From positions 1-32,690 of the IMG/VR virus record IMGVR_UViG_3300050821_005168: a stretch of DNA of 32,690 bases; one strand, given 5' to 3'. Positions 6,009 to 32,503 of the stretch are shown in pieces; position 1 is the first letter of the stretch, and the number at the start of each line of letters is the position of its first letter. The DNA is from a virus. The notes under the pieces are model-generated. The model saw only the letters and a list, made by a program, of their open reading frames with translations. It was not told where the DNA came from and did no database searches. The translations under genes were made by a program, and so were the position numbers.

Positions 6009-7442
6009 ATGTTCGACGGCGGGGTAGGCAACGGCAAGACTACGGGCGGTCTTATGCGCCTACTTATCCTTGCGCGAGAGTTCCCTGGCTCAAGGTGGGT
6101 GGTAGCTCGCCAGACTTACAAAACCTTGATGAATACGACCCGCAAGACGTTCGACAGGCTATGCCCCCCTGCCTGGATCAAGCGGGACGTGAAAGAGGAA
6201 ATGGTCCTGGCCAATGGTTCCGAAATTAACTGGATGCACCTGGACGAAATGAATGAAGGCGATCTTAGGTCCCTTGAGATCAATGGGGCCTTTGTAAGCC
6301 AAGCGGAAGAAGTCGCCCCCGAGATGTGGGAGTTCATAGACTCGCGCATAGGCCGCTGGAGCCGCCCAGAGTGGAAAGAACCATGCCCGCCCTATCTTTG
6401 GGGAGAGTGCAACCCTAACGGGCATGATTGGGTCTATTTCCGCTTTCATCCCGAAGTCGTAGGAGATCATCCAGACAGGGCGTATTTCTTTGGCGCGACC
6501 TCAATCAACAAAGTCATGCTCGATAAGTTCTCTCCCGGCTATTACGACATGCTTATGCGAAAGCCGGAAGCCTGGAAGCGCCGCTGGGTCTACGGGTCCA
6601 GGGACATATTCGAGGGAGCTATCCACCCCGACTTTAGAAGGGAGATACACGTTTACGATGCAGATAGATGGGACCCCTTTGAGCATATGGACATCAAATC
6701 GTGCTGGGGATGGTTCGATTACGGTCTTAGCGCCCCGACCTGCCTTCTCCTCAGCGCCTCTACCTCCGACAATTACCACTTCATTACACATGAGTACTAC
6801 AAGCGCTCTACTCCTGGCCGCACAATTACTATACGCGAGCATGCGAGCGCTATTCTCAAGCTCATGCGTGAAAATCGTTATTCCGTCAGAGGGGTATATG
6901 CGGACCCGTCAGTCTTCTTTGAAAGTACGCGAGATCGGCGTACGCAAGTAACCTCTACGGCTCAGGAATACCGCGAGTGTGGTCTCTACCTCATTAAGGC
7001 AGATAACAATGAAACCGCCTCTATCGCCAACCTGCAAGAGCTTATGCATATCAACCCTTTACTGCGCAATCCTGTGCTTAAGACTGTTGGTTCGCCGCGC
7101 CTATTTATCTCTTCCCGCTGCGAGAACCTGATCGACCAAATCCAGCTCCAACGCCACGCGGAGACGCGCAACCCACTTACAGGCGAGAAGGAGTTCACCG
7201 AAGAAAGGGCGGCAGGCATCCCCGACCATGCTTATGACCCATTGCGCTATTTTGCCAACTCTTCAGTGTGGCAAGCCATCCGAGTTAGAGAGCAACCCCC
7301 CGCACCGCAATATCGAACCACGCCGACAAACAACAAGCCAGTAAAGGGATATGCGAATCCCGGCATGATGCCGAAAACCAGAACTACCGAATGGCGACAA
7401 CTTCCACCAGCCCCACAGCCTAAGAGGGTCGCGCAGAATTGA
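6009..7442 (+). CDS. terL: Terminase large subunit
   Basis: The DNA-packaging motor ATPase and nuclease. Counting from ATG 6009, the Walker A is GGVGNGKT (4-11); a Walker B-like strand with paired acids is FVSQAEEV (95-102); and a coupling-type CNPNG lies at 134-138. The RNase H-like nuclease shows Asp in WFDYG (237), Asp in YADPS (299) and DHAYDPLRYF (406-415). This ATG almost abuts Walker A, which is too short for a terminase: the frame is protein-like from about 5922 and encodes the usual adenine-contacting segment (FEPASETQADYIW), yet it has no ATG, GTG or TTG before 6009. I list the first ATG as the minimum; the real N terminus is likely about 29 residues longer. Confidence 0.9.
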   Translation: MFDGGVGNGKTTGGLMRLLILAREFPGSRWVVARQTYKTLMNTTRKTFDRLCPPAWIKRDVKEEMVLANGSEINWMHLDEMNEGDLRSLEINGAFVSQAEEVAPEMWEFIDSRIGRWSRPEWKEPCPPYLWGECNPNGHDWVYFRFHPEVVGDHPDRAYFFGATSINKVMLDKFSPGYYDMLMRKPEAWKRRWVYGSRDIFEGAIHPDFRREIHVYDADRWDPFEHMDIKSCWGWFDYGLSAPTCLLLSASTSDNYHFITHEYYKRSTPGRTITIREHASAILKLMRENRYSVRGVYADPSVFFESTRDRRTQVTSTAQEYRECGLYLIKADNNETASIANLQELMHINPLLRNPVLKTVGSPRLFISSRCENLIDQIQLQRHAETRNPLTGEKEFTEERAAGIPDHAYDPLRYFANSSVWQAIRVREQPPAPQYRTTPTNNKPVKGYANPGMMPKTRTTEWRQLPPAPQPKRVAQN

Positions 7443-7780
7443 ACTGGGTCGGTAAGACATGGGGGGCTGAGCAGTGGATCGTCAACAACGAACTATATTG
7501 CATGAAGTTCCTGCATGTAACACCAGGCTTTCAATCTTCTATGCATAGGCACCTACTTAAGGACGAGACTTTCTATGTCCGCGAAGGGGCAATCAGATTA
7601 GAAGTTGGCGAAGAGGAACCAATAATACTTCGTCCTAGCGACGAGTTCAGGATTGCGCCTGGTACGTGGCACAGATTCGCCAATCATCCCAAATGGGCGA
7701 TGGCGCTAGTTATCGAGGTTTCCACGCATCACGATGATGCCGACGTTGAGCGCAGAGAACTATCGGGACCAATCGAATGA
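7439..7780 (+). CDS. Cupin-fold protein, phosphomannose isomerase-like
   Basis: A TTG at 7439 overlaps the TerL TGA (TTGA). The 113-residue product is a single cupin barrel. Motif 1 has His 36, His 38 and Glu 43 (MHRHLLKDETFYVREG) and motif 2 has PGTWHRF with His 78, so the metal-binding set is complete. The MNWVGKTWGAEQWIVN opening resembles small cupins related to type II mannose-6-phosphate isomerases and sugar-nucleotide enzymes. It probably acts on a sugar phosphate in the cytoplasm. A sugar gene wedged between terminase and portal is unusual and may link to the GT9-like glycosyltransferase downstream. Substrate not deducible. Confidence 0.75.
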   Translation: MNWVGKTWGAEQWIVNNELYCMKFLHVTPGFQSSMHRHLLKDETFYVREGAIRLEVGEEEPIILRPSDEFRIAPGTWHRFANHPKWAMALVIEVSTHHDDADVERRELSGPIE

Positions 7781-7956
7781 ACGATTCGGGGCGTAACGCA
7801 ACCTGCTGTAAAGCCAAAGTGCCTGATAAGTGCAACATCTGCGGAATGTGTGGAAGGTGTTTCGATCACATGGATAAATCGCCGTGGGAACGCTGCCCAA
7901 TTTGTTCACCCATAGACTCGCGCAAGAGAATGAATCGACTATCCATTGGCAACTAA
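7777..7956 (+). CDS. Cys-rich zinc-binding microprotein, 59 aa
   Basis: ATG 7777 overlaps the cupin TGA (ATGA). The 59-residue product holds nine Cys, mostly in CxxC-type pairs: CNICGMCGRC at 19-28 and CPIC at 40-43, with His 31 nearby. This looks like a compact double zinc knuckle, followed by a basic tail (DSRKRMNRLS). The ribosome binding site of the portal gene lies in its 3' end, and it overlaps the portal TTG by 11 nt. Function unknown; treble-clef or RING-like folds are possible. Confidence 0.6.
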   Translation: MNDSGRNATCCKAKVPDKCNICGMCGRCFDHMDKSPWERCPICSPIDSRKRMNRLSIGN

Positions 7957-9982
7957 CTTCGTAAGCAGCTTTGGGATGCCTCCAGGTCCTCCGACCTCGG
8001 TTTCACCTGACACGGGACCGGCTGAGCGCGACTCCGATCAAGGCACAACCCATTCCGATGACACGAAACAAGCCAGTGTCCGTGGCAAGACAGGCCTATC
8101 CGATGCGGAAATAGTCTCGCAGATTGAGCGCTACCGCAATGAAGCGTTCATGCGCGAGTACATCATTCGCAATACGTGGCTCGACTGCTACGGCCAATAC
8201 CGGAACAAGCAGGACTTTGACGATAAGGCTCCCTGGCAATCACGACTCACTTACGCGAAGGCTCATAGCGCAGTCAAGAACTTCGCTGCCAACATTATTC
8301 GCCTGCTTTTGCAATCGGAGCAATGGGTCACAGTAGACCCCGGATCGTCCGTTAATCCGACTATCGACATTAAGAGCATGGCTCCGCTAGTCGAGCGAGT
8401 CGTGCTTAAGCTCGCCAACAATGCACACTTCAGAAGCCAGTTTCGAGATGCGCTCGAATTTGGCGCAGCGTGCGGGTTGGGAGTGCTAAAGGTTGGCTGG
8501 GGCTATGAGAACGTCTTTGACCTATCGGTAGGCGCGGACGATACCGGACCTCTACTGATTCAGAAAAAACGCAAGGAGGGGCGATTGTATGTTCAATCCA
8601 TCGACCCTTTCCACATTTGGTTTGGGCCTCGCACTCGGGACAATAATCGGTTCGATTTCATTATCGAAGAGACCCTGGTCGATGTGGATGAACTCAAGTC
8701 GCAGAAAGGCTTGGAGAACACGAGCGAACTCGAACACGTGGACCGGATTGCCGACCAGATGTACTTCGCAGACCAGGTGTACACACGCGACTTTGCCCGT
8801 TACGACAAGCGTCTCATCCCCGCCGAGCATTACCGCAAGCAAGCACTGCTCTGGGAGTACTGGGGCGATATTGTTAACGTCCACACGCAGCAAGTCGTAG
8901 ACGCCAACGTGCATATCCTTATCGCCAATCGCACCACCATCCTGAAGTACGAGAAAAACCCATACTGGGATGGACTGCCGCCTTACATCATCTTCTCGCC
9001 ATTGGTTGTAGCTGGAAGGTTCCCAGGTCAGGGCTTATTGGAGATGAACTTAAGCGTTAAGGACGCGGCGGACAGGACAGCCCAGAAGCAAGAGGATCAC
9101 CTAAGCTTTAGCGTAGTACCCATGCTGGAGGTGGAAGCGAGTGCTCTCGAAAATCCTGAAGGCGATATGCAGACTGGCGTCCAGCCAGGGAAGGTCTTCT
9201 ACAAAAGAGCTGGAGCAGGTCCTAGTGCGGTACAAGGGGTACAGTTCCCCCAACTCGGAAACTCATCCTTCAACTTCCTGCAATCGCTCAACAAAGAGTA
9301 CGAACGCGGCACCTTCATCACCGAACAGGCGCAAGGCTTGCTCGACGTTAAAGGCGAAACGACGGCTACGGAGATCCAGCAAACCCAACTCCAATCCACG
9401 CTGATCCTGGCCGACATAGCCGTAACCATTGAAGATAACTGTTTGCAATTCGTAGCGCAGAAGATGTGGAGTAGAGCCTTTCAGTTCATGGATGCAACTT
9501 CTACGCCTACCTGGACGATGCTGCTAGGGCAGGTAGGGCAAGTACTAGATCAGTTACCCATTCAAGAACGCATCAAACTTATCTGGGGGCGCTACAACTT
9601 TGAGGCTCGCGGGCTATCGCGCACGATTGAGCGCCAGCAGAATCTATCGAAGTACAAAGACCTGCTTGAGACGCTAGCGCAACTAGGACCGCAGGCAATT
9701 AGCGGAGTGGGAATGCAGTTGAACAAGTTCCTGCGGCGCATCGTGGACGCTTACCATTTCCCCGATCCGTGGGAACTCTTTGCGCCAGATGCGGACGACA
9801 TGGAAGAACAGCAAAGACAGGCCGCTCTCGCTCAACAAAATCCGTTCTTATCGGAGATGGCGCGAGCGCACGGGCAGATTGCCTCTTCGCGTGAAGCGAA
9901 CGATCAACAGACTTTACAGAAATTGCTGGATGCGGCTATGTCGTTAGGGCAACCGCCTTCAGCCCCAGGGCCAGCAGCATAA
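7946..9982 (+). CDS. Portal (head-tail connector) protein
   Basis: The 678-residue product has the size and layout of podovirus-type portal proteins. A Pro/Ser/Thr-rich N terminus is followed by an alpha/beta clip and wing region with WLDCYGQYRNK, AKAHSAVKNFAANIIRLL and IDPFHIWFGP. A long helical stem follows (LSVKDAADRTAQKQEDHLSF, GETTATEIQQTQL), and the C-terminal part is helical. A portal dodecamer forms the DNA channel and the docking site for terminase and tail. The TTG start (7946) overlaps the previous gene; an ATG eleven codons later is the alternative. It is followed by a clear AAAGGAG before the next gene. Confidence 0.85.
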   Translation: MATNFVSSFGMPPGPPTSVSPDTGPAERDSDQGTTHSDDTKQASVRGKTGLSDAEIVSQIERYRNEAFMREYIIRNTWLDCYGQYRNKQDFDDKAPWQSRLTYAKAHSAVKNFAANIIRLLLQSEQWVTVDPGSSVNPTIDIKSMAPLVERVVLKLANNAHFRSQFRDALEFGAACGLGVLKVGWGYENVFDLSVGADDTGPLLIQKKRKEGRLYVQSIDPFHIWFGPRTRDNNRFDFIIEETLVDVDELKSQKGLENTSELEHVDRIADQMYFADQVYTRDFARYDKRLIPAEHYRKQALLWEYWGDIVNVHTQQVVDANVHILIANRTTILKYEKNPYWDGLPPYIIFSPLVVAGRFPGQGLLEMNLSVKDAADRTAQKQEDHLSFSVVPMLEVEASALENPEGDMQTGVQPGKVFYKRAGAGPSAVQGVQFPQLGNSSFNFLQSLNKEYERGTFITEQAQGLLDVKGETTATEIQQTQLQSTLILADIAVTIEDNCLQFVAQKMWSRAFQFMDATSTPTWTMLLGQVGQVLDQLPIQERIKLIWGRYNFEARGLSRTIERQQNLSKYKDLLETLAQLGPQAISGVGMQLNKFLRRIVDAYHFPDPWELFAPDADDMEEQQRQAALAQQNPFLSEMARAHGQIASSREANDQQTLQKLLDAAMSLGQPPSAPGPAA

Positions 9983-12678: not shown

Positions 12679-13635
12679 ATGCCTTCACAGTTGTTCGGTA
12701 CGAACAGCTTGGGCGGCTTTTTCACTAACAATGAACTGTCGCTCCAGTTGCGCATCAAGGCGCAGCCGCTTAAGCGGTTCCGTCAATTCGTGCAGATTAA
12801 AGGGGCTAAGGGAGCGCGGCGCGGCAACAAGGTCTATTTCGACAAGTTGCAGCCCGTCGCTACCGCCGCTGCTACTGGCGGTCTCGCGGAAACGGCAACC
12901 ATTCCTGAAACAAACTTCTCCATCAATCAGGGAACCCTCACCATCAACGAGTACGCGAACGCCATCGCGTTCACCAATCAGCTTGTAGCGCTGTCTGAGT
13001 TGGATGTCGATAACTCGGTCGTGCAAACGTTGATGAACGATATGGCCATCACGCTCGACTCCGTTGCTGGGGCGCAATTCCAGTCGAGTGACTTGGTTTA
13101 CGTTGCTTCGCTCTCGAACAGCGTAAACATCACTACGGCTGGCACCGCATCTTCAACCGCCAGTTCGAACCTCAACGGCACTAACTGGCGGGCGATTTGC
13201 GATGACATGCGCAAGAAGAACATCCCCTTTTACGACGGGCAGTCCTACGTTGTGATTTGCAGCGTAGGCGCGTTGTCTGGCTTCTTCAACGACACCCAGA
13301 CGGGCGGCTTCGTGGACGTGACCAAGTATTCAGAGACGCTTTCTGAGTACCTGTATCGCGGAGAGGCTGGCCGGTACTATATGGGCCGTTTCGTTGAAGA
13401 GACCAACGTGCTCAAGAACCTGGCAGGCACTTCCACTACAAGCGGAGAGGCTGTAGCAATCGGCTTCGATGCGGTTATGGAAGGCGTCGCCATCCCCGAG
13501 GAACTACGCGAGAAAGTGCCGACTGATTATGGTCGGTCACAAGGTATCGCGTGGTATGCCTTGCTCGGCTTCCAGAAGATTTGGAACCAACAGACGGATG
13601 GGAGCGAACGTATCGCTCACATCACGAGTTTGTAA
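12679..13635 (+). CDS. Major capsid protein (HK97-fold type)
   Basis: The 318-residue product follows a strong AGAGGAG. An N-terminal arm (SLGGFFTNNELSLQLR) leads to a beta-rich region with long strands and Thr/Ala-rich loops. Residues PYDGQSYVVI and the PEELREKVPTDYGRSQGIAWYALLGFQKIW segment resemble the P and A domains of P22/N4-like coat proteins. The assignment rests on position (after a scaffold, before small head proteins), length and the general look of the sequence rather than a diagnostic motif. It would form the icosahedral shell. Confidence 0.8.
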   Translation: MPSQLFGTNSLGGFFTNNELSLQLRIKAQPLKRFRQFVQIKGAKGARRGNKVYFDKLQPVATAAATGGLAETATIPETNFSINQGTLTINEYANAIAFTNQLVALSELDVDNSVVQTLMNDMAITLDSVAGAQFQSSDLVYVASLSNSVNITTAGTASSTASSNLNGTNWRAICDDMRKKNIPFYDGQSYVVICSVGALSGFFNDTQTGGFVDVTKYSETLSEYLYRGEAGRYYMGRFVEETNVLKNLAGTSTTSGEAVAIGFDAVMEGVAIPEELREKVPTDYGRSQGIAWYALLGFQKIWNQQTDGSERIAHITSL

Positions 13636-14061: not shown

Positions 14062-14571
14062 GTGGCGACTAACGGAGAACTGAAGAAGTTCGACGCTACA
14101 CCCACTGGCCGCACTTCCGTTGTAAGGGGGGCGAAGTATGCGCGAGGCTTCGTCATCCGGCCCGAGCAGATACTTTCCCTCTTTCACGACACGCAACCCA
14201 ACCTTCCCCTGCCGGGAGATGCGCAATTCCAAGGTGTGGGGTTTGAGGATGCTGGCGTGGATAGCCAGATTCAATTCTTCTTTACCTCGCAGACGGCTCC
14301 GTGGGAACACTGCTTCGCCATGAAGCCGCAACTATTCTTCAACATCCTGGTTGATCTCGCGGATGGACTATTGCCGCTAGATTCCGAACTGGACGGTATC
14401 GAGATCAGCCATCGGTTTACGGTGCTTATGCTGCGCGTGAAGTCGTCTCATTGGCCTGCAGCACCAACCGACAATCTGCCGATCTATCACCTGCGTTACG
14501 ACTTAGGGAGACTGATACTTGTCGATCCATCGAAAGCTATTGAAGGCGATAGGCGCATTCGCATTAATTAG
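14062..14571 (+). CDS. Hypothetical head protein, 169 aa
   Basis: A GTG at 14062 starts a 169-residue globular alpha/beta protein with a Trp/Phe-rich core (IQFFFTSQTAPWEHCFAMKPQLFFNI). It ends with positively charged residues (GDRRIRIN). No family recognised. The next gene's TTG overlaps its 3' end by 53 nt, a larger overlap than the usual few bases here, which raises doubt about one of the two starts. Head completion or tail-adaptor function is possible from position. Confidence 0.6.
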   Translation: MATNGELKKFDATPTGRTSVVRGAKYARGFVIRPEQILSLFHDTQPNLPLPGDAQFQGVGFEDAGVDSQIQFFFTSQTAPWEHCFAMKPQLFFNILVDLADGLLPLDSELDGIEISHRFTVLMLRVKSSHWPAAPTDNLPIYHLRYDLGRLILVDPSKAIEGDRRIRIN

Positions 14572-16315
14572 CCTTCTGCCCGTTCTGGCGATGGCGCAAG
14601 GCAATACCTACCAGCCACAACTCATTACAGGTTCGGGCGCTCCAGGTACAGGGGCGGTTCAGAATTGCGCCATCTACCAGGAGTACACCGATACGGCCAC
14701 GGGCAATCATTGGTGGTGCAAGCCAGACAATAGCGGCCAGCATGGCTCATGGGTGATGGCTGGCAATCCCTCTTCCCTAAACAACTTCTTCTTCGTGGAC
14801 GGTGTGACATATACCACGATAGCTCAGGCGGCAGCAGCGGCTGATCCCGGTTTGGTGAACTGTAGTTTTACGACTAGCTGCGGGACGGTTGTGATCCCTC
14901 CGAAGTACGCAGGTACGGACAACTTCAATAATGCCGGTATCAATCTGCTGATCTTGGATTACCGCAGTAAGTTATTCAACGCACCCAGTATCAACGTGCC
15001 GACGTTCATCACGTCAATCGATAGCGACGCTACCTATCCGGCGGGCCGCGATATGAACTTCTTTCCCGGCGGACCGGCAGGATTGTACTTCAGACGCTCC
15101 ACAGTCGACACGACGACCACTGCTTCTCTGAGCGTTGGAGCAAACACAAATGTCTTAGTTGGTGCGGTCAACAATCACAACGTAGATTTGGGGAACGTCC
15201 AGACAGGTACTCTATCGACCCTGTTCTCCATTGGCACGGGTACAGCCCCACAGAAAATTTATGTGGGCCGCGAGACGGCGAATAACGAGCAGTTGACCTA
15301 CAGCGCGACCGTGAACTGTCCCATATCCGGGACCTGGAACATCGTGGACGGCACGCATCTTTGCCTGAACACGACGAAGACACACGCGGGAACGACCGAC
15401 ATCGAGCAGCCTCCGGACCCAGTTCGCTACGATTTTACCGATCTCCAGATTCGCGCTTACCAGTCTCGACCTTCACAGGATGCGAGTACTTGTCTTCCTA
15501 TGTTCGTGAACGACTTCAATGGCGTCAACCTGATGACGCTTCCAAGCGACTCGACATGCGCGGCTCCGAGGAATCAGCCTGCTTTTAACAGCGGGTTCAA
15601 CATCTATGTGGGTGGTGGAGTGCTCAGTGGCTCTCCGGTCTCTACATCTTGGGAATCGTTCACCCTTGGTGGTCCCAACTTCTCCATGAGCAATATCGAC
15701 CAGGGCGGGACAATTCGCGGCTTCGTCGGTCCCTTCTATGGTGGCACCGTAAACAACGGATCGTTTGGTGCGATCCGAATGCAAAATCAGACTTATCTTA
15801 CTCAAAGGAACGCTGCGAACAACGACGATAGCTGTATAAGCCTGGACGCCAATGACCAATGGTATTTGCAGACCAAGTGCAATGGCTCTGCCCCGCGCAT
15901 CAGCTTCTTCCCTGGCCTAAGCGGAACTGCGACGCTTGTTAATTGCAACACTTCGCAGAAATCAGAGTCCGCAGCGGATGTCAATGTGTTGACGTGTACA
16001 CCGCCCGCTGTGGCTGGAAGCTACCGAGTCCATCTGAATCTGTCTCTCTCGGCAGCGACCGCAGCCACGCTGGGATGGACAGCAACGTGGACAGACTCCA
16101 ACGGCACATCCCAAGCTCCAACAAATCTTCCCATCTGCATCAGTTCGGCGGGAACTTGCGCGGCAACGACGGGAGCGTTGAGCAGCACCGTAACCGCGTC
16201 GGGCGACTACTACATTGACGTGAACAATGCAGGAACGGCCATTGTGATTAAGCTTACCTTCAGCGGCACATCATTCACGGCCAAGGTCAGTGCGACGGTT
16301 GAGAAGCTGATCTGA
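14519..16315 (+). CDS. Exported fibre/spike-like protein with Sec signal peptide
   Basis: The 598-residue product starts with a textbook signal peptide: a basic N terminus (HRKLLK), a hydrophobic core and AMA before Gln 27. It continues with VDGVTYTTIAQAAAAA and VVIPPKYAG, as at the start of pectate-lyase-type phage spikes. A Ser/Gly/Asn-rich beta-strand region follows, then a C-terminal beta domain (residues about 470-598, LNLSLSAATAATL). Such proteins recognise or degrade surface polysaccharide. A signal peptide on a spike-like protein in the virion operon is unusual. The TTG start (14519) is needed to include the signal; no in-frame ATG precedes the hydrophobic core. Confidence 0.7.
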   Translation: MSIHRKLLKAIGAFALISLLPVLAMAQGNTYQPQLITGSGAPGTGAVQNCAIYQEYTDTATGNHWWCKPDNSGQHGSWVMAGNPSSLNNFFFVDGVTYTTIAQAAAAADPGLVNCSFTTSCGTVVIPPKYAGTDNFNNAGINLLILDYRSKLFNAPSINVPTFITSIDSDATYPAGRDMNFFPGGPAGLYFRRSTVDTTTTASLSVGANTNVLVGAVNNHNVDLGNVQTGTLSTLFSIGTGTAPQKIYVGRETANNEQLTYSATVNCPISGTWNIVDGTHLCLNTTKTHAGTTDIEQPPDPVRYDFTDLQIRAYQSRPSQDASTCLPMFVNDFNGVNLMTLPSDSTCAAPRNQPAFNSGFNIYVGGGVLSGSPVSTSWESFTLGGPNFSMSNIDQGGTIRGFVGPFYGGTVNNGSFGAIRMQNQTYLTQRNAANNDDSCISLDANDQWYLQTKCNGSAPRISFFPGLSGTATLVNCNTSQKSESAADVNVLTCTPPAVAGSYRVHLNLSLSAATAATLGWTATWTDSNGTSQAPTNLPICISSAGTCAATTGALSSTVTASGDYYIDVNNAGTAIVIKLTFSGTSFTAKVSATVEKLI

Positions 16316-16345: not shown

Positions 16346-18217
16346 ATGACCTGGAGAATTGACGCAAGCGAAGGCAACGAAACCGCAAAGGTCCACGACA
16401 GAATAGCGCCATTCGTCTACGGCCACGGAGTGGACTTGGGGTGCGGCTGCTGGAAGCTCAAGGTCGAAAAGAGCAGGGAGCATAGCTGTATTGGCGTAGA
16501 TATGGGGCTTTCCACGTTCGCGTGCAAAGAAGCCGACATGATAGCGGATGTGTCCAGCCTGCCTTTCAAGGATGAAGCCTTCGATTATGTCTATTCCTCG
16601 CACACGCTTGAGGACATGCACTACACCGAAGCGGTCCTTCTGGAGTGGTGGAGGATTCTCAAGCCCGGAGGCAGGTTAATACTCTATCTGCCGCTCACGC
16701 GCAAAGTGGCAAAAGCAATGGGTCGCGAGGATTGGGAGAACTTCTATCCCAACAAAGGCGAAGAGGGCGCAAATGTCTACCATGCAAGGGACTTCCATCC
16801 GCAAGAGATTCGAGATGCTATAGCTACAATCGGTGCTGCGGAGGTACTGGCCGATGAAATCAGAGGCGAAAAAGACGAATACAGTTTCCTGCTCGTATTC
16901 CGAAAGTGCGCATCTTCTGCAAGTCCTGTTAAGGGTATCGTTGCTGGAACTCCCGGAAAGCGAGCTTTGGTGGTTCGCTACGGAGCTATCGGCGATTTCA
17001 TACAAACTGTTCCAGTTCTTAAAAAACTCAAGGGAGAAGGCTATCACGTCACGGTCAACGGTTCGGAGACCGCTAAAGATGTCCTGAAGTACTGTCCCTA
17101 CGTGGATGAGATAGCCGTTCAGATCAAGGACTACGTTCCCAACAAGGGCGTGGTATCCGGTCCTCTGTTTGACTACTGGAAAGAACTCTCGACCAAGTAC
17201 GACAAGTTCATCAATCTCACCGGAGCGGCGGAAGAGACTCTACTTGTGCCTGATTCTCGCTTGATGCACATGATGGAGGGCGTTCGCACAAAGCATCCCG
17301 AACTGAACGAAGAGAGCGTCTTCTTCAACGCCATACGCGCCGTACAGCAGCAAGTAGGCGAGACCAATTACTACGACAACCACCTAGCGAAAGCGGGCTA
17401 TCCAGATCGCGGCATGAACGGGGAGCTATTCTTCAGTGAGCAAGAAGAGGTCATGGCCCAGGGTTTCCGAGACAAGTATCCTGGTCGGTTTGTGGTTATG
17501 TGGGTGCTTAGCGGCTCTAGCTATCACAAGCGTTACCCGTATTTTCAGCAGGTGGCGCAAGAGCTGGTCATAAAGAATCCCGATATTCTGCTGATTAGCG
17601 TAGGAGACCCGGAATGCGCACTTATCGAGAGGTCGGAGTCAAACAGATACTTACCTCGCGCAGGAAAATGGCAACTCCGAACAAGCTTAGTAATGACTAA
17701 ATACGTAGACTGCGTGATTGGTCCAGAAACGGGCATTCTAAACGCGGCAGGTTGTTTCTCGACTCCCAAAATCACTATGCTATCGCACTCAAGCCACGAG
17801 AATCTTTGTAAGTACTGGGCCAATGACTTCTGCATTGCGCCTGACCCGAAAGAGGTCTTTTGCCATCCCTGCCACGTGCTGCACTACATTCACTCGGTAA
17901 ACTCAGAGTGCCCGACGTGCAAAGGCAGTACGCACACCTTTCAGAATAGCAATGGGCCTGCCGGGGTAGGAACTGTTTGGACTTGCCCCTATGAGATTCC
18001 TAACTCCATGAAGGACGCAACGGGACTGGGACCGCCCTCGCCGCTGTGCACTACCCGGCTCTATCCCCAGAAGGTGCTCGCACGCATAAACGAGGTTTAT
18101 CGTTTGTGGCTCTCTGGACAGCACCGGCACCCGCAACCGCTAGTTACCATAGGGCAGCCTAATTCCGTGAAGCATTCGGCTTTGTTACGCGAAACAACGC
18201 AGGCGGTGGCGGGGTGA
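16346..18217 (+). CDS. Fusion of SAM methyltransferase and GT9-type glycosyltransferase
   Basis: A 623-residue protein with two enzyme domains. Residues about 20-190 form a class I methyltransferase: VDLGCG (29-34) is the SAM loop, and FDYVYSSHTLEDM and WRILKPGGRL match the type 11 family. Residues about 204-480 resemble glycosyltransferase family 9 (heptosyltransferase-like): ALVVRYGAIGDFIQTVPVL at the start and CVIGPETGILNAAGC (456-470) as the donor-site signature. A C-terminal Cys/His cluster (FCHPCHVLH, ECPTC) may bind zinc. It could add and methylate a sugar on the host surface or on virion proteins. It sits among structural genes. ATG 16346 is preceded by a weak GAGCGTGGTGAG. Confidence 0.8.
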   Translation: MTWRIDASEGNETAKVHDRIAPFVYGHGVDLGCGCWKLKVEKSREHSCIGVDMGLSTFACKEADMIADVSSLPFKDEAFDYVYSSHTLEDMHYTEAVLLEWWRILKPGGRLILYLPLTRKVAKAMGREDWENFYPNKGEEGANVYHARDFHPQEIRDAIATIGAAEVLADEIRGEKDEYSFLLVFRKCASSASPVKGIVAGTPGKRALVVRYGAIGDFIQTVPVLKKLKGEGYHVTVNGSETAKDVLKYCPYVDEIAVQIKDYVPNKGVVSGPLFDYWKELSTKYDKFINLTGAAEETLLVPDSRLMHMMEGVRTKHPELNEESVFFNAIRAVQQQVGETNYYDNHLAKAGYPDRGMNGELFFSEQEEVMAQGFRDKYPGRFVVMWVLSGSSYHKRYPYFQQVAQELVIKNPDILLISVGDPECALIERSESNRYLPRAGKWQLRTSLVMTKYVDCVIGPETGILNAAGCFSTPKITMLSHSSHENLCKYWANDFCIAPDPKEVFCHPCHVLHYIHSVNSECPTCKGSTHTFQNSNGPAGVGTVWTCPYEIPNSMKDATGLGPPSPLCTTRLYPQKVLARINEVYRLWLSGQHRHPQPLVTIGQPNSVKHSALLRETTQAVAG

Positions 18218-19158
18218 GCGAATCCCTTAACCTAGGAGCAATCCGTTCTCAAGCCCAGATATACTTGCTTAACACCTCGACCGACCTTAATTCGCTGTCT
18301 TGGTCTACGAGTGAGCTTAACGGCTACATAAACGAGGCCACGTTGTACACACAGCAGCTCACGAATTGGTACGAGGACTTTGACACTCTGGTTTGTACAG
18401 CATCAGTGTCGACCTACACCGCCCCGCCTACAGTGCATCAATTCCTAAGACTTACATGGGATAGGGTATTTTTGCCGCAGACCAACGAATACGAACTAGA
18501 TAGAGACGATCCTAGCTGGCGAGCCGCACCAAATAACAATCCATTTCGCTTCTACTTCCCGCAGTTCGGCCAGCAAGCGGCTATCTCACCCTATCCCGTT
18601 CCTTCGCAAAACGGCACCACTTACACATCAACTCCAGAAACCGGAGCCGTCACTGCGCTTACGCTCGATGACGGAACGGCAATCACGTTCAATCAGGAGA
18701 CCGGAGTAGTCATTCAGGTAACGGATAGCAGCGAGACCTTGCTAGGATTCCGATCCGACCGCCTAAACAATCCCTTCCCCAGTCAGGAGTTTGGCGAGAT
18801 TGCCATGTTCACGAGCGACAAGCTCAATATCGGCATGGCCTTTGTACGCTTGCCGGATACGCTCGTTCTTGATACGGATACACCACAACTCCCGATTCAA
18901 TGTCATCTCGGGCTTGTGTTCTATACGCTGATGAAATGTTTCGCGCGAGAAGGCGAGTTTCAGGATTTGGACGTTGCGCAAGGCTGGTTTCAGGCATACG
19001 GCGATTGGATGGAATCGGTCTTAGAGAATAAGGCCAGGTGGTGGGCGACTCGCGTCAAGTCGCTTGAGCCATACGAAGAGGGAAGCCTTTTCGCGCAAAG
19101 ACTTAATGCTATCGGCTACCCGATGCAACTTGATTTGAAGCCGAGTTACGGAACGTGA
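18214..19158 (+). CDS. Head-tail adaptor protein, SU10-like, copy 1
   Basis: GTG 18214 overlaps the previous TGA. The 314-residue product opens with the helical pattern LGAIRSQAQIYLLNTSTD, then LSWSTSELNGYINEATLY, typical of SU10-type adaptor proteins that join portal to tail. A beta-rich domain (DRDDPSWRA, FYFPQFGQQ) and a helical C terminus (FQDLDVAQGWFQAYGDWMES) follow. The gene at 19523 shares the opening and the YPVP/VPVP strand style, so the two are probably paralogous adaptors. A receiver-domain gene lies between them. Confidence 0.7.
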   Translation: MSESLNLGAIRSQAQIYLLNTSTDLNSLSWSTSELNGYINEATLYTQQLTNWYEDFDTLVCTASVSTYTAPPTVHQFLRLTWDRVFLPQTNEYELDRDDPSWRAAPNNNPFRFYFPQFGQQAAISPYPVPSQNGTTYTSTPETGAVTALTLDDGTAITFNQETGVVIQVTDSSETLLGFRSDRLNNPFPSQEFGEIAMFTSDKLNIGMAFVRLPDTLVLDTDTPQLPIQCHLGLVFYTLMKCFAREGEFQDLDVAQGWFQAYGDWMESVLENKARWWATRVKSLEPYEEGSLFAQRLNAIGYPMQLDLKPSYGT

Positions 19159-28916: not shown

Positions 28917-30194
28917 ATGAAACTAGCCCTACTGGTACTGGTGTGCGTGTTTGCGGCGCTTCCAGGGCTTGCGCAAAACACAGGCTTGCCTAATGACGCG
29001 CCCCCGTTACCTTCAAACCTCTATACGACGCCAAGCTATATTGGCACAAGCGGCTCCGGACTTCCCGCTGGCGGGGGCACAACTCCCGCCAATCGTGCGC
29101 AGGTCGTTACCGAAACTCCTAACGGCACTACTCAAGGCACGGGGGCATGGGCCTTGCCGGGTGATTCGCCCACGGATCGTGGAAGCGGTGAAGCCTCGTA
29201 CACGATAGCGGTTACCGACATCGGCACTTCGATACGCGAAACGAACGTGAATGGCGAGGCCTTCACCATCCCGGACGGTAATACGAACGGCTTCGTGCTG
29301 CCGGTGAATATTGGCTTCATCATCGAGGGTGGGACTTCGACCATCACACGCACGACCTCGTCGCAGTTTCGCTGCACGCCCAACGGTCCATTGGCGAATA
29401 CGTGCACTCTTAACCCCGGCGCTCAGTACATTCTGAAAGAGACCAGCGACTTCAATTACACGCTGAGCGTGGCTGGCGACACGAATCCAAGTCCTCAAGA
29501 CGACAAGATTTGGTCTTACTCGACAGAGTTCGGAACAGTTGCTTTTTCCACGAATCTTTATGGCTTCTCCGCCCCTTGGCAATGCAGTGGGGGCACCAAT
29601 GGAACGGTGGCGATCTCTAACGGGTCGTGGCCTTACTTTGCGTATCTCCAAATGACCAGTTCAGCCACGGCATCGTCATTCGCCCAGTGCGCATTCCCTC
29701 AAGTTAGCACCAACGCCAATCCTCACGCTCTTTATGGAAGCAATACGGGTTGGGATTTTACTTGGGTCGCAGCTCTAGCTCAGACGACGAATACGCGGGC
29801 CTATTTTGGGCTGTTCTCGGCAAACGCAGCGGTCCGTCCTACCGATGGAATGTGGATTCGTTACGACACGAATGCCACGTTCAACGATACAAAGTTTACA
29901 TTTGAGACCTGCAAGGCGAGTGCGTGCACGATCATCGCCCAACTAAACGTAGACACGAACTTTCACCGATTCGAGATCAAGAGCACAGTCGTCGGAACAA
30001 TCGACTTCTTCATCGACAACGCCAACCATGGCTGCTTCAACTCCGGGGGCACTGGCGGTTGCACAGCTTCAGCCAATATCCCAACTGTCGCCGAACTACC
30101 TACTGTAGTGGCTGGCAACGATACGACCGCATCTGCTTCGCTTGTTAATTTTAACCGCGCCGCGGGAACCATTACGGGGCTGGCGCGACCGTGA
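28917..30194 (+). CDS. Exported fibre-like protein with Sec signal peptide
   Basis: I use ATG 28917, preceded by GCGAAAGGC, because an upstream in-frame start lacks a ribosome binding site. The 425-residue product starts MKLALLVLVCVFAALPGLAQ, a signal peptide cut after GLA, leaving Gln. The mature part is Thr/Ser/Asn/Gly-rich and beta-strand-like: a low-complexity N-terminal segment, a domain at about 75-190 (YTIAVTDIGTSIRETN) and a lectin-like sandwich at about 200-400 with aromatic positions (WDFTWVAALAQT, FHRFEIKSTV). It resembles phage fibre or carbohydrate-binding proteins, but is predicted to be exported. The next gene overlaps its stop. Confidence 0.65.
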   Translation: MKLALLVLVCVFAALPGLAQNTGLPNDAPPLPSNLYTTPSYIGTSGSGLPAGGGTTPANRAQVVTETPNGTTQGTGAWALPGDSPTDRGSGEASYTIAVTDIGTSIRETNVNGEAFTIPDGNTNGFVLPVNIGFIIEGGTSTITRTTSSQFRCTPNGPLANTCTLNPGAQYILKETSDFNYTLSVAGDTNPSPQDDKIWSYSTEFGTVAFSTNLYGFSAPWQCSGGTNGTVAISNGSWPYFAYLQMTSSATASSFAQCAFPQVSTNANPHALYGSNTGWDFTWVAALAQTTNTRAYFGLFSANAAVRPTDGMWIRYDTNATFNDTKFTFETCKASACTIIAQLNVDTNFHRFEIKSTVVGTIDFFIDNANHGCFNSGGTGGCTASANIPTVAELPTVVAGNDTTASASLVNFNRAAGTITGLARP

Positions 30195-32503
30195 GAACGC
30201 TATCCTGGCTCGCCGTCGAAATCTTCTGGATTGCGGCGATTATTTTCATATTTGTGCTACCTGGGCGTTCTCAGGTTACGGTCGGCGTGCCCCTGTTTGA
30301 GCCGCCGACGCAGGGAACGGACTACAACCCCACGCCGGGAGCGAGTTCCTACACAGGGACGGGCGGAATCGTTCTCAACATCCTGACCGGCACGCCGCCG
30401 TTTTCGTGCGCGGTCACGAGCGGGGCGATTCCAACCAGCATGACACTCGATGAAGTGACGCCCACTTCGACGCCTGCCGGCGGATGCCGCATCAAGGGAA
30501 CGCCTACCGTAGCAGGAGATTTCGTGTTCACGCTGCAGGTCACGGACGCGAACTCGAATACGGCAAGCCAGAGCGTGACGGTTCCGGTGAATACGAGCAG
30601 CCCGGCTACCTACTCCGCGCAGACCTGCGGCAGTCCCGGAGTGAGTACGGCGACATGTACTTGGACTACAAGCGTGGCTACGACAACGCAGCTCTGCGGC
30701 AGTATGGATAACACGTTCCCGAAGGGAGTTCCGGGATCGTCTGGGCCTGCGAGTTTCTGTACTACAGAAACCGATTTAACTGGTGTCACATCCCATTCGG
30801 TTAGCCTCTCTGGGTTGGCAGAAAACGCTAAATATTATGTTTACTTTATAGGTCGAGGGATCAGCGCGGGCTCCCCGCAGGATTATTTGTTTTCATTCAA
30901 TGAGCCTTCATGTGCTGGCAATCCCGGATGTGGCTCATCCTTTTTCACGACAGCCGTAGCATCGAATGCCGGAACGGCAGACTTTAGCTTGCAGATGTAT
31001 GGTGCCCACAACATTATTCAGGGATTCCCGCTTTATGTGGCGATTCACCCGTGGCCCCTTGTTGGAGTCACGGACATCACGGGGCACAATGTCGTCTTCC
31101 AGGTCACGGGACTGCCTACTAACTCGCAGGTCCATTGGCCCGACCAGCAGGATGACGGCTGCGCTTGCGGCACTGTCAGCACCACGACCACGACCAACGA
31201 CACGTTCACGCTCGTCGGGGGCGTGAGCATCGTCAACAACGAGCAATTCGAGATTCTGACCAACGTGGGCGGCACAACCCCCGTGGGAAGTTCGACCCTT
31301 ACGTTGACCGTGACGGTTGGAGCGACGCCGACCATTCACACCTTCAACTGGACGCTAAATGTGGCTGCGCCTTCGTTTACGTTCGGGAGCCCCTCAAGCT
31401 ATCCAGCAATCCCTTCTTTATCGACGTGGACAAGTAATCAGTCCATTGGAAATCTAGATTGGGCGACTCCGGGTGGATCGCAAGGCATTTGCTCGATGGG
31501 TTTTACTAATGTTGGTTTCTATGACGGTGCTTGGGCCTTCTACCAAGGGGGAATCTGGAACGGTCAATCTATCCCGTGGGCTCAAGATGCCAGAGTTTGT
31601 AGTCAGAATTATCAGAACACAGAAGTCAATGTGATTGGAAGCGACACGAACTGGCAGAGTTTTGCGATCTTTGTTCACCCACATGGCCAGTATTATGAAT
31701 GTAAGCAGTATGGAATTCCTCTTTCTTGCAATGGTGTAGCCGCACTCCCTGCATGCTGCGGCGGTTCAATGATATCTAACAGCACCCCATACGCTAGTGC
31801 CGATTACGCCCGTGAATCAGCATTCATGCTGAGCGCCAAGCGGCTCGACTACGACAACGGAGGGGCTACCACGCTCGCCAAAGTAAAGACGATGGCGGCT
31901 TATGTTCTCGGCAACATTGATCAGTACGTCAACGAAGATACGACCATTCTAAATGAGACGTTCATGCACGGACTCTTGGGGCAGGCGGCTATCGAGTTTT
32001 ACGCCGATCCGAACACTGGCAACGGCGATGTGCGCGTTCCTCAGGCAGTCTGTGGTATGGCGGATCATCTCTGGAGTACCTGGTTCGTCCCGTGGAACGG
32101 AGCCGCTGGAGGTTTTCCTTATGAGCATGACACTTGGGCAAGTACCAAAAGCGCAGGATGGAAAAGTGTTCCTGCCTTCGGCGCCGGTGGAAGCGCCCTT
32201 GAAGATTTGAATAACTTAATCGCTCCAGTATTTGCGTGGTGCTTCTCGATAACGGGACAGCAAAAGTACCAACAGGAGTTCGATACGCTCTTTAATTCCA
32301 GCAATCTTGAGCCTCTAAACATAGGCGAAGGGGCGGTGGGGAAGACTTGGACTCAAAATTATCGCTGGACATATTTAGGGCTACTGTGGCGCGGCGCGAC
32401 TGCCCCTTCGGGCGCTGGAATTGGCTGCTTTCAACTGCCGCAAACAGGAACATGCCCGAGAGTGCAACTGCCCGTTCCGGCAGTGGGGAGTCCAACGCTA
32501 TGA
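30191..32503 (+). CDS. Exported multi-domain protein: Ig/FN3-like domains plus helical enzyme-like C terminus
   Basis: GTG 30191 overlaps the previous TGA. The 770-residue product has an N-terminal hydrophobic signal (LAVEIFWIAAIIFIFVLPGRS, then Gln). An Ig-like domain of the He_PIG kind follows at about 45-133 (CRIKGTPTVAGDFVFTLQVT), then a FN3-like domain (about 140-235) and another Ig-like domain (about 270-400). The C-terminal half (about 400-750) has alpha-hairpin-like segments (YARESAFMLSAKRLDYDNGG, LLGQAAIEFYADPN) and aromatic/acidic clusters (WFVPWNGAAGG, PYEHDTWAS). This suggests an alpha/alpha-toroid polysaccharide-active enzyme; catalytic residues are not identified. Confidence 0.65.
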   Translation: MRTLSWLAVEIFWIAAIIFIFVLPGRSQVTVGVPLFEPPTQGTDYNPTPGASSYTGTGGIVLNILTGTPPFSCAVTSGAIPTSMTLDEVTPTSTPAGGCRIKGTPTVAGDFVFTLQVTDANSNTASQSVTVPVNTSSPATYSAQTCGSPGVSTATCTWTTSVATTTQLCGSMDNTFPKGVPGSSGPASFCTTETDLTGVTSHSVSLSGLAENAKYYVYFIGRGISAGSPQDYLFSFNEPSCAGNPGCGSSFFTTAVASNAGTADFSLQMYGAHNIIQGFPLYVAIHPWPLVGVTDITGHNVVFQVTGLPTNSQVHWPDQQDDGCACGTVSTTTTTNDTFTLVGGVSIVNNEQFEILTNVGGTTPVGSSTLTLTVTVGATPTIHTFNWTLNVAAPSFTFGSPSSYPAIPSLSTWTSNQSIGNLDWATPGGSQGICSMGFTNVGFYDGAWAFYQGGIWNGQSIPWAQDARVCSQNYQNTEVNVIGSDTNWQSFAIFVHPHGQYYECKQYGIPLSCNGVAALPACCGGSMISNSTPYASADYARESAFMLSAKRLDYDNGGATTLAKVKTMAAYVLGNIDQYVNEDTTILNETFMHGLLGQAAIEFYADPNTGNGDVRVPQAVCGMADHLWSTWFVPWNGAAGGFPYEHDTWASTKSAGWKSVPAFGAGGSALEDLNNLIAPVFAWCFSITGQQKYQQEFDTLFNSSNLEPLNIGEGAVGKTWTQNYRWTYLGLLWRGATAPSGAGIGCFQLPQTGTCPRVQLPVPAVGSPTL

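Follow-up and report, generated by a model that had tools for sequence, protein, structure and literature searches.

The 32,690-nucleotide stretch of viral DNA analysed here (hereafter, the window; IMG/VR record IMGVR_UViG_3300050821_005168) carries, at 16346..18217 (+ strand), a gene whose product was described in a first-pass annotation as a SAM methyltransferase (MT) fused to a family 9 glycosyltransferase (GT9), with a Cys/His cluster added at the C-terminus. What such an enzyme would transfer, and to which acceptor, is the question raised by this locus, for which that annotation had offered two answers: modification of a host surface glycan to block superinfection, or decoration of virion proteins.

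The fusion joins a class I methyltransferase to a divergent GT9 domain

The gene starts with an ATG and runs as a single uninterrupted frame of 623 aa plus the stop, which is overlapped by 4 nt by the GTG start of the downstream gene (GTGA, 18214-18217). Residues ~1-190 (16346..16915, + strand) form a class I SAM methyltransferase domain with the SAM-binding motif VDLGCG at positions 29-34; the Methyltransf_11 profile matched residues 30-113 well above its cut-off (E 1.7e-12, 48.2 bits against 21.2) and was also found in 38 of the 39 aligned family members. The GT9/GT-B catalytic domain (16955..17845, + strand; residues ~204-500, with the GT9 match at ~205-500) was assigned from TIGR02193 and Foldseek. 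PF01075 gave a weak match to residues 278-494 with hmmscan (E 0.008) and reached E 2e-5 in a one-genome search, where its 18 bits fell under the 22-bit cut-off. The NCBIfam heptosyltransferase I model TIGR02193 matched residues 207-494 (E 2.2e-7), its 30 bits against a cut-off of 185 falling short of the equivalog level for LPS core heptosyltransferases. Both profiles place the protein in GT9, with scores under the cut-off of each model; among the aligned members, 15 of 39 matched PF01075 (best 5.8e-9), and a profile of the C-terminal half found the GT9 structure PDB 3TOV (E 4e-4).

AlphaFold2 models obtained from 39 and 41 family rows had a mean pLDDT of 79.9 and 78.6, respectively, with values mostly of 80-96 across the MT domain (except for the first 10 residues) and low-confidence stretches at residues 295-305, 511-545 and 596-623. 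Foldseek matched the model of the GT half to 3TOV (6e-15), WaaF (1e-13), WaaC (2e-10) and TibC (7e-8), the first three being the top matches, with TM scores of 0.53-0.66 by target length, which corresponds to a GT-B heptosyltransferase fold. The full-length model also matched many SAM methyltransferases, and none of the top 50 BFVD viral models scored well in an alignment covering the two halves (best query TM 0.37). The single frame, the profiles and the predicted structures thus bear out one polypeptide with both activities' folds, and fold and profile agree that its C-terminal half is GT9.

The motifs VDLGCG, VVRYGAIGDFIQTVP and GPETG were all present as first described. D217, K395, R445 and E461-T462-G463 were invariant in the 39 members, and D217 (16994..16996, + strand), the Asp of the GxxGD motif of GT9 enzymes (here GAIGD), occupies the position equivalent to the catalytic Asp of WaaC and TibC, which in TibC is Asp110 (PMC4358343). 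On these sequence grounds Asp217 is a candidate catalytic base, and the fusion a putatively active enzyme.

The Cys/His tail (17861..18049, + strand) is an expanded knuckle made of C506, C509, H510, H513, C528, C531, C547 and C568. Each of C506, C509, H510, H513, C547 and C568 was conserved in at least 90% of the family, and all six Cys were invariant within the group of 53-90% identity, while other lineages have a short tail, with C-x2-C or C-x10-C followed, after ~9 and ~10 residues, by the next two Cys. Several GT9s from an Omnitrophota genome likewise end in CQPC...C...C, CRPC...C...C or CTPC...C...C. Because ordinary bacterial GT9s carry such a C-x-P-C...C...C tail, the cluster is a GT9 feature that has been expanded in the window's group by two extra Cys (C528 and C531); its presence was correctly noted at the outset, but not its being an addition, and a newly appended domain was rejected. 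A heme site at CXXCH was also discarded, given the C-x10-CH spacing in many members and the Cys4 tail of bacterial GT9s. TibC has four iron-binding Cys, which it requires for assembly and activity (PMC4358343).

The fusion recurs in divergent phages under purifying selection

Scanning IMG/VR with the GT half yielded 65 loci, in most of which ~190 MT residues precede the GT. The fusion was present in 41 loci non-redundant at 90%, with identities down to 26%, and contigs of the same architecture were found at 90, 84, 72 and ~37% identity. Both halves were under purifying selection, with dN/dS of 0.09-0.13 (MT) and 0.05-0.08 (GT), and their distances correlated (r 0.85, 38 members). Since the architecture recurs in divergent contigs and is selectively maintained, we rejected the possibility, contemplated in the first-pass annotation, that two separate genes had been merged by a sequencing error, as well as a chance origin: the MT-GT9 gene encodes a genuine enzyme fusion, well conserved among these phages.

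Some members depart from this arrangement. In L064 the MT of the fusion is degenerate and lacks the SAM motif while the GT is retained, and in L022 and L035 MT and GT9 are adjoining separate genes. In L007 (2640-2780) and L008 (2610-2750), a 7-nt insertion, TTGAAGG, inside VVRYG^AIGD places the two halves in overlapping frames: the MT frame stops at ...ALVVRYG* and the GT frame continues in +1, with an ATG that overlaps that stop. Both halves of this pair are still under purifying selection (dN/dS 0.09 and 0.035, dS ~0.45), and a search of IMG/VR contigs for the 7-nt junction pattern returned L007 and L008 only. A recent split with restart would fit these data, as would a +1 frameshift giving VVRYGEGAIGD, so that programmed frameshifting and stop-restart are both possible.

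The fusion was absent from 50,697 phage records and its architecture did not appear in the literature searched, in line with the initial impression that it is not a characterised phage enzyme. A scan of bacterial genomes retrieved only a GT9 of 21% identity from an Omnitrophota MAG, revealing neither host nor source lineage, and the cultured relatives by capsid or closure protein (PTXU04, Vibrio 431E48.2 and Rhodoferax P26218) have no GT annotated in the equivalent slot.

The gene lies between capsid and adaptor and is inherited with the capsid

As anticipated, the fusion lies inside the structural block. On the + strand, the window encodes the terminase large subunit (6009..7442; phrog_2, E 1.4e-18), an SU10-like portal protein (7946..9982; PF23899, E 1.4e-20; phrog_332/1216), the major capsid protein (12679..13635; phrog_1357, E 4e-19), small genes, a protein of 598 aa whose N-terminus looks like a signal peptide (14519..16315; read from the sequence, with no Pfam or PHROG match), the fusion and, directly downstream, a head-tail adaptor (SU10_adaptor, 18214..19158; PF24175, E 2.4e-10). 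Proteins of ~600-810 aa resembling that at 14519-16315 in having a signal-peptide-like N-terminus occur in the head-gene block of L002 (3459-5894), L004 (3926-5980), L007 (3933-6059) and L008 (3903-5723); their C-termini are variable, and those of the window and L002 had no Pfam match. Near the window end, 30191-32503 encodes a 770-aa protein with a hydrophobic, signal-like N-terminus and no convincing family match.

The order capsid, MT-GT9, adaptor is common to groups with P22 gp10-like closure proteins and to groups with SU10-type adaptors. So that loci were not picked by the gene itself, the major capsid protein, blind to the GT gene, was used as the anchor of this conserved position. MT and GT9 occupied the capsid-to-adaptor interval, in the same orientation, in 34 of the 37 capsid-anchored loci in which it was visible (29 fused, 5 with MT and GT9 separate, 3 with neither), a count that is favoured by adaptor models derived from GT-bearing loci and by a capsid profile derived from gene-carrying phages. 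Eight more capsid-anchored loci of at least 7 kb had no recognised adaptor, and 3 of them had the gene while 5 did not. In 53 of 54 loci the downstream gene had the same orientation and in 44 it was of adaptor type, the two genes mostly overlapping or being separated by 1-4 nt. GT distances closely followed capsid distances (Mantel r 0.93, or 0.75 once the window's own group was removed). The same slot harbours GT2, GT4, TylF-type O-methyltransferase and Methyltransf_23 genes in relatives, and extra GT9-family copies lie between capsid and adaptor at L064:2606-3871, L063:2428-3498, L035:5962-8560 and L092:9373-12201. MT-GT9 is therefore no one-off, but a near-core gene linked to the capsid in a large group of uncultured phages, although not essential to the capsid type, because some capsid relatives lack it.

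Such consistency between capsid and adaptor makes the gene look like part of the head-building programme. Its capsid-like conservation and position, together with the loss of the SAM motif in L064, would also agree with a protein of the head or its assembly in which the enzyme folds are reused without catalysis. Nevertheless, the candidate catalytic and donor-site residues are invariant in the GT9 half, the SAM motif is kept by nearly all members and MT and GT9 also exist as separate genes, and we regard a purely structural role as very unlikely.

Some relatives encode the pathway to ADP-D,D-heptose

GmhA and the HldE kinase were encoded in 4 of the 57 records with GT9-family genes, compared with none of the 6 records without them, and two of those four also carry HldE-II and GmhB, that is, the whole pathway to ADP-D,D-heptose. 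G005, the record of L027, has HldE-I kinase (TIGR02198, E 9e-56), GmhA (E 1e-55), HldE-II adenylyltransferase (E 6e-19) and GmhB (E 7e-39) in genes that overlap one another, with DNA polymerase and other phage genes alongside; all four are likewise present in G043 (the record of L107, where MT and GT9 are separate), and G024 and G054 have HldE-I and GmhA. The four-gene pathways of two uncultured phages are located on the minus strand, at L178 (G005:46000-62900) 6199-8571 and at L189:3026-5345. These gene names are best-match assignments, since their scores fall under the NCBI equivalog cut-offs. GmhA-like matches numbered 12 in the 50,697 phage records, some of them likely host sequence, and the enrichment of GmhA in GT9-family records over that set (Fisher p 2e-9, denominator 56) is a guide only, as the two counts come from different methods, an HMM search and tblastn, and related records are counted as independent. 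The NAD-epimerase (PF01370) of the HldD-type step was absent from all 63 records, which leaves ADP-D,D-heptose as the predicted end product of the pathway; TibC uses this donor on protein (PMC4358343). GDP-mannose dehydratase genes were absent from the 13 relative records inspected. The window, a fragment, encodes no heptose pathway, and its donor could therefore be another nucleotide sugar. An independent link to heptose genes comes from cyanophages S-T4 and Sf-CH5, whose stand-alone MT genes, the nearest cultured relatives of the MT domain, adjoin a heptose kinase/adenylyltransferase, with phosphoheptose isomerase nearby.

Two other observations were made in these regions. In G024, the neighbour of GmhA/HldE-I (L190:3778-4353, minus strand) matched pyruvate dehydrogenase E1 alpha (TIGR03182, E 1e-29). 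G005 carries thymidylate-synthase-type and 5-hmdU DNA kinase-like genes (L178:9803-11610, minus strand), suggesting hypermodified DNA. DNA is the substrate of some phage GT-B enzymes, and modified bases of such a phage might be what the fusion glycosylates, but the base-modification genes of G005 are far from its MT-GT9 gene, and both the head-block position and the GT9 homology to heptosyltransferases speak against it; we consider this reading very unlikely.

Host LPS or another surface glycan is a more serious candidate acceptor, with a heptose and a methyl cap blocking superinfection or keeping new virions from binding again to debris. Transfer of heptose to the LPS core is the typical activity of GT9 enzymes, the top curated model for the window protein is heptosyltransferase I (TIGR02193), ADP-heptose genes occur in some relatives, and integrases in 4 of 13 records checked leave room for a lysogenic role. 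However, surface-conversion genes are usually accessory and located away from head genes, and a fixed place between capsid and adaptor with capsid-like divergence would be unusual for one of them. Because GT9 and ADP-heptose are the normal tools of LPS synthesis, and some relatives have integrases, we keep a minor share of probability for LPS modification, while judging it unlikely.

Proposed function

The near-constant presence of this gene beside that of the capsid points to phages that put a methylated sugar on their own particles. We propose, with moderate confidence, that the fusion is a capsid-linked bifunctional enzyme that performs heptose transfer and O-methylation, most likely on a virion protein. 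It would be encoded, and probably made, together with the head proteins; its GT9 domain would attach a sugar, probably heptose, and the MT domain would then O-methylate that sugar or one next to it. Among virion proteins, the capsid, a small head protein and the exported protein encoded next door are the likeliest acceptors, and the particle would then carry a methylated heptose glycan. Of the two roles first suggested, virion decoration fits the capsid-adaptor position and capsid co-inheritance better than superinfection blocking, both roles being hypothetical. Counted against decoration were that position and co-inheritance are no proof of virion modification, the acceptor being postulated; that LPS heptosyltransferases share the ADP-heptose donor; that the GT9 domain is divergent, with a Pfam score under the cut-off in the window protein; and the mismatch to TIGR04414 (see below), the capsid relatives without the gene and the integrases mentioned above.

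A narrower version takes the adjacent protein at 14519-16315, possibly exported or receptor-binding, as the acceptor, by analogy with TibC, which modifies an autotransporter (PMC4358343). Large signal-peptide-like proteins indeed precede the gene in the window, L002 and L004 and follow it in L007 and L008, but such a neighbour is missing from most of the family, and the beta-helix impression given by the neighbour in the window comes from reading alone, with no database match. We find this version improbable. More tentatively than for the enzyme itself, and as something short of probable, we suggest that virion decoration extends to the whole uncultured clade with SU10- and P22-like head-tail genes, which would have protein heptosylation and methylation built in through a near-core head gene, clade-wide virion methylheptose and, in some members, their own ADP-D,D-heptose pathway.

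Phage particle glycosylation is known from few cases, and this widespread group has no cultured carrier among the phage records searched; the analysis names ADP-D,D-heptose as a candidate donor and narrows the possible acceptors to a few. ADP-heptose is also established as a microbial signal to which animal innate immunity responds (PMC10269868), and phages that make or consume it would therefore be of wider interest.

Comparison with known systems

The fusion shares with WaaC, WaaF and 3TOV (PF01075, TIGR02193) the GT-B fold, the GD motif with its invariant Asp, a Lys in the nucleotide-binding half and the Cys4 tail also carried by bacterial GT9s. It differs from them in a structural-alignment identity of only 11-18%, in having GPETGxxN where many bacterial GT9s have (D/N)(S/T)GxxH, in the attached methyltransferase and in its location among phage head genes. 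TibC/AAH (BAHT) enzymes resemble it in fold (the 7e-8 match), in a four-Cys finger and in a plausible ADP-D,D-heptose donor; yet TibC has an N-terminal beta-barrel where the fusion has its MT domain, and four conserved Cys are not diagnostic of BAHT, since bacterial GT9s have a similar tail. Membership of BAHT was rejected, as the window protein did not match the BAHT/TibC model TIGR04414 up to E 10.

Among phages, mycobacteriophages such as Che8 encode GTs and are reported to bear glycans on the capsid protein (cited in PMC11256854); in the related Maravista the GTs map close to the 3' end of the genome, unlike the head-block place of the fusion. S-T4 and Sf-CH5 have the stand-alone MT relative (37% identity) with heptose genes and GTs nearby, but they lack an MT-GT9 fusion, have large genomes of T4-like size and carry these genes outside the head block. 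The chlorovirus PBCV-1 protein A064R belongs to a eukaryotic virus, and its GT families are unrelated (the first domain is GT-A-like) and its domain order opposite. Nevertheless, it offers an analogy, and only that, for a viral GT and methyltransferase in one protein: A064R, a single GT-GT-methyltransferase polypeptide, builds a methylated glycan on the major capsid protein (PMC9614988).
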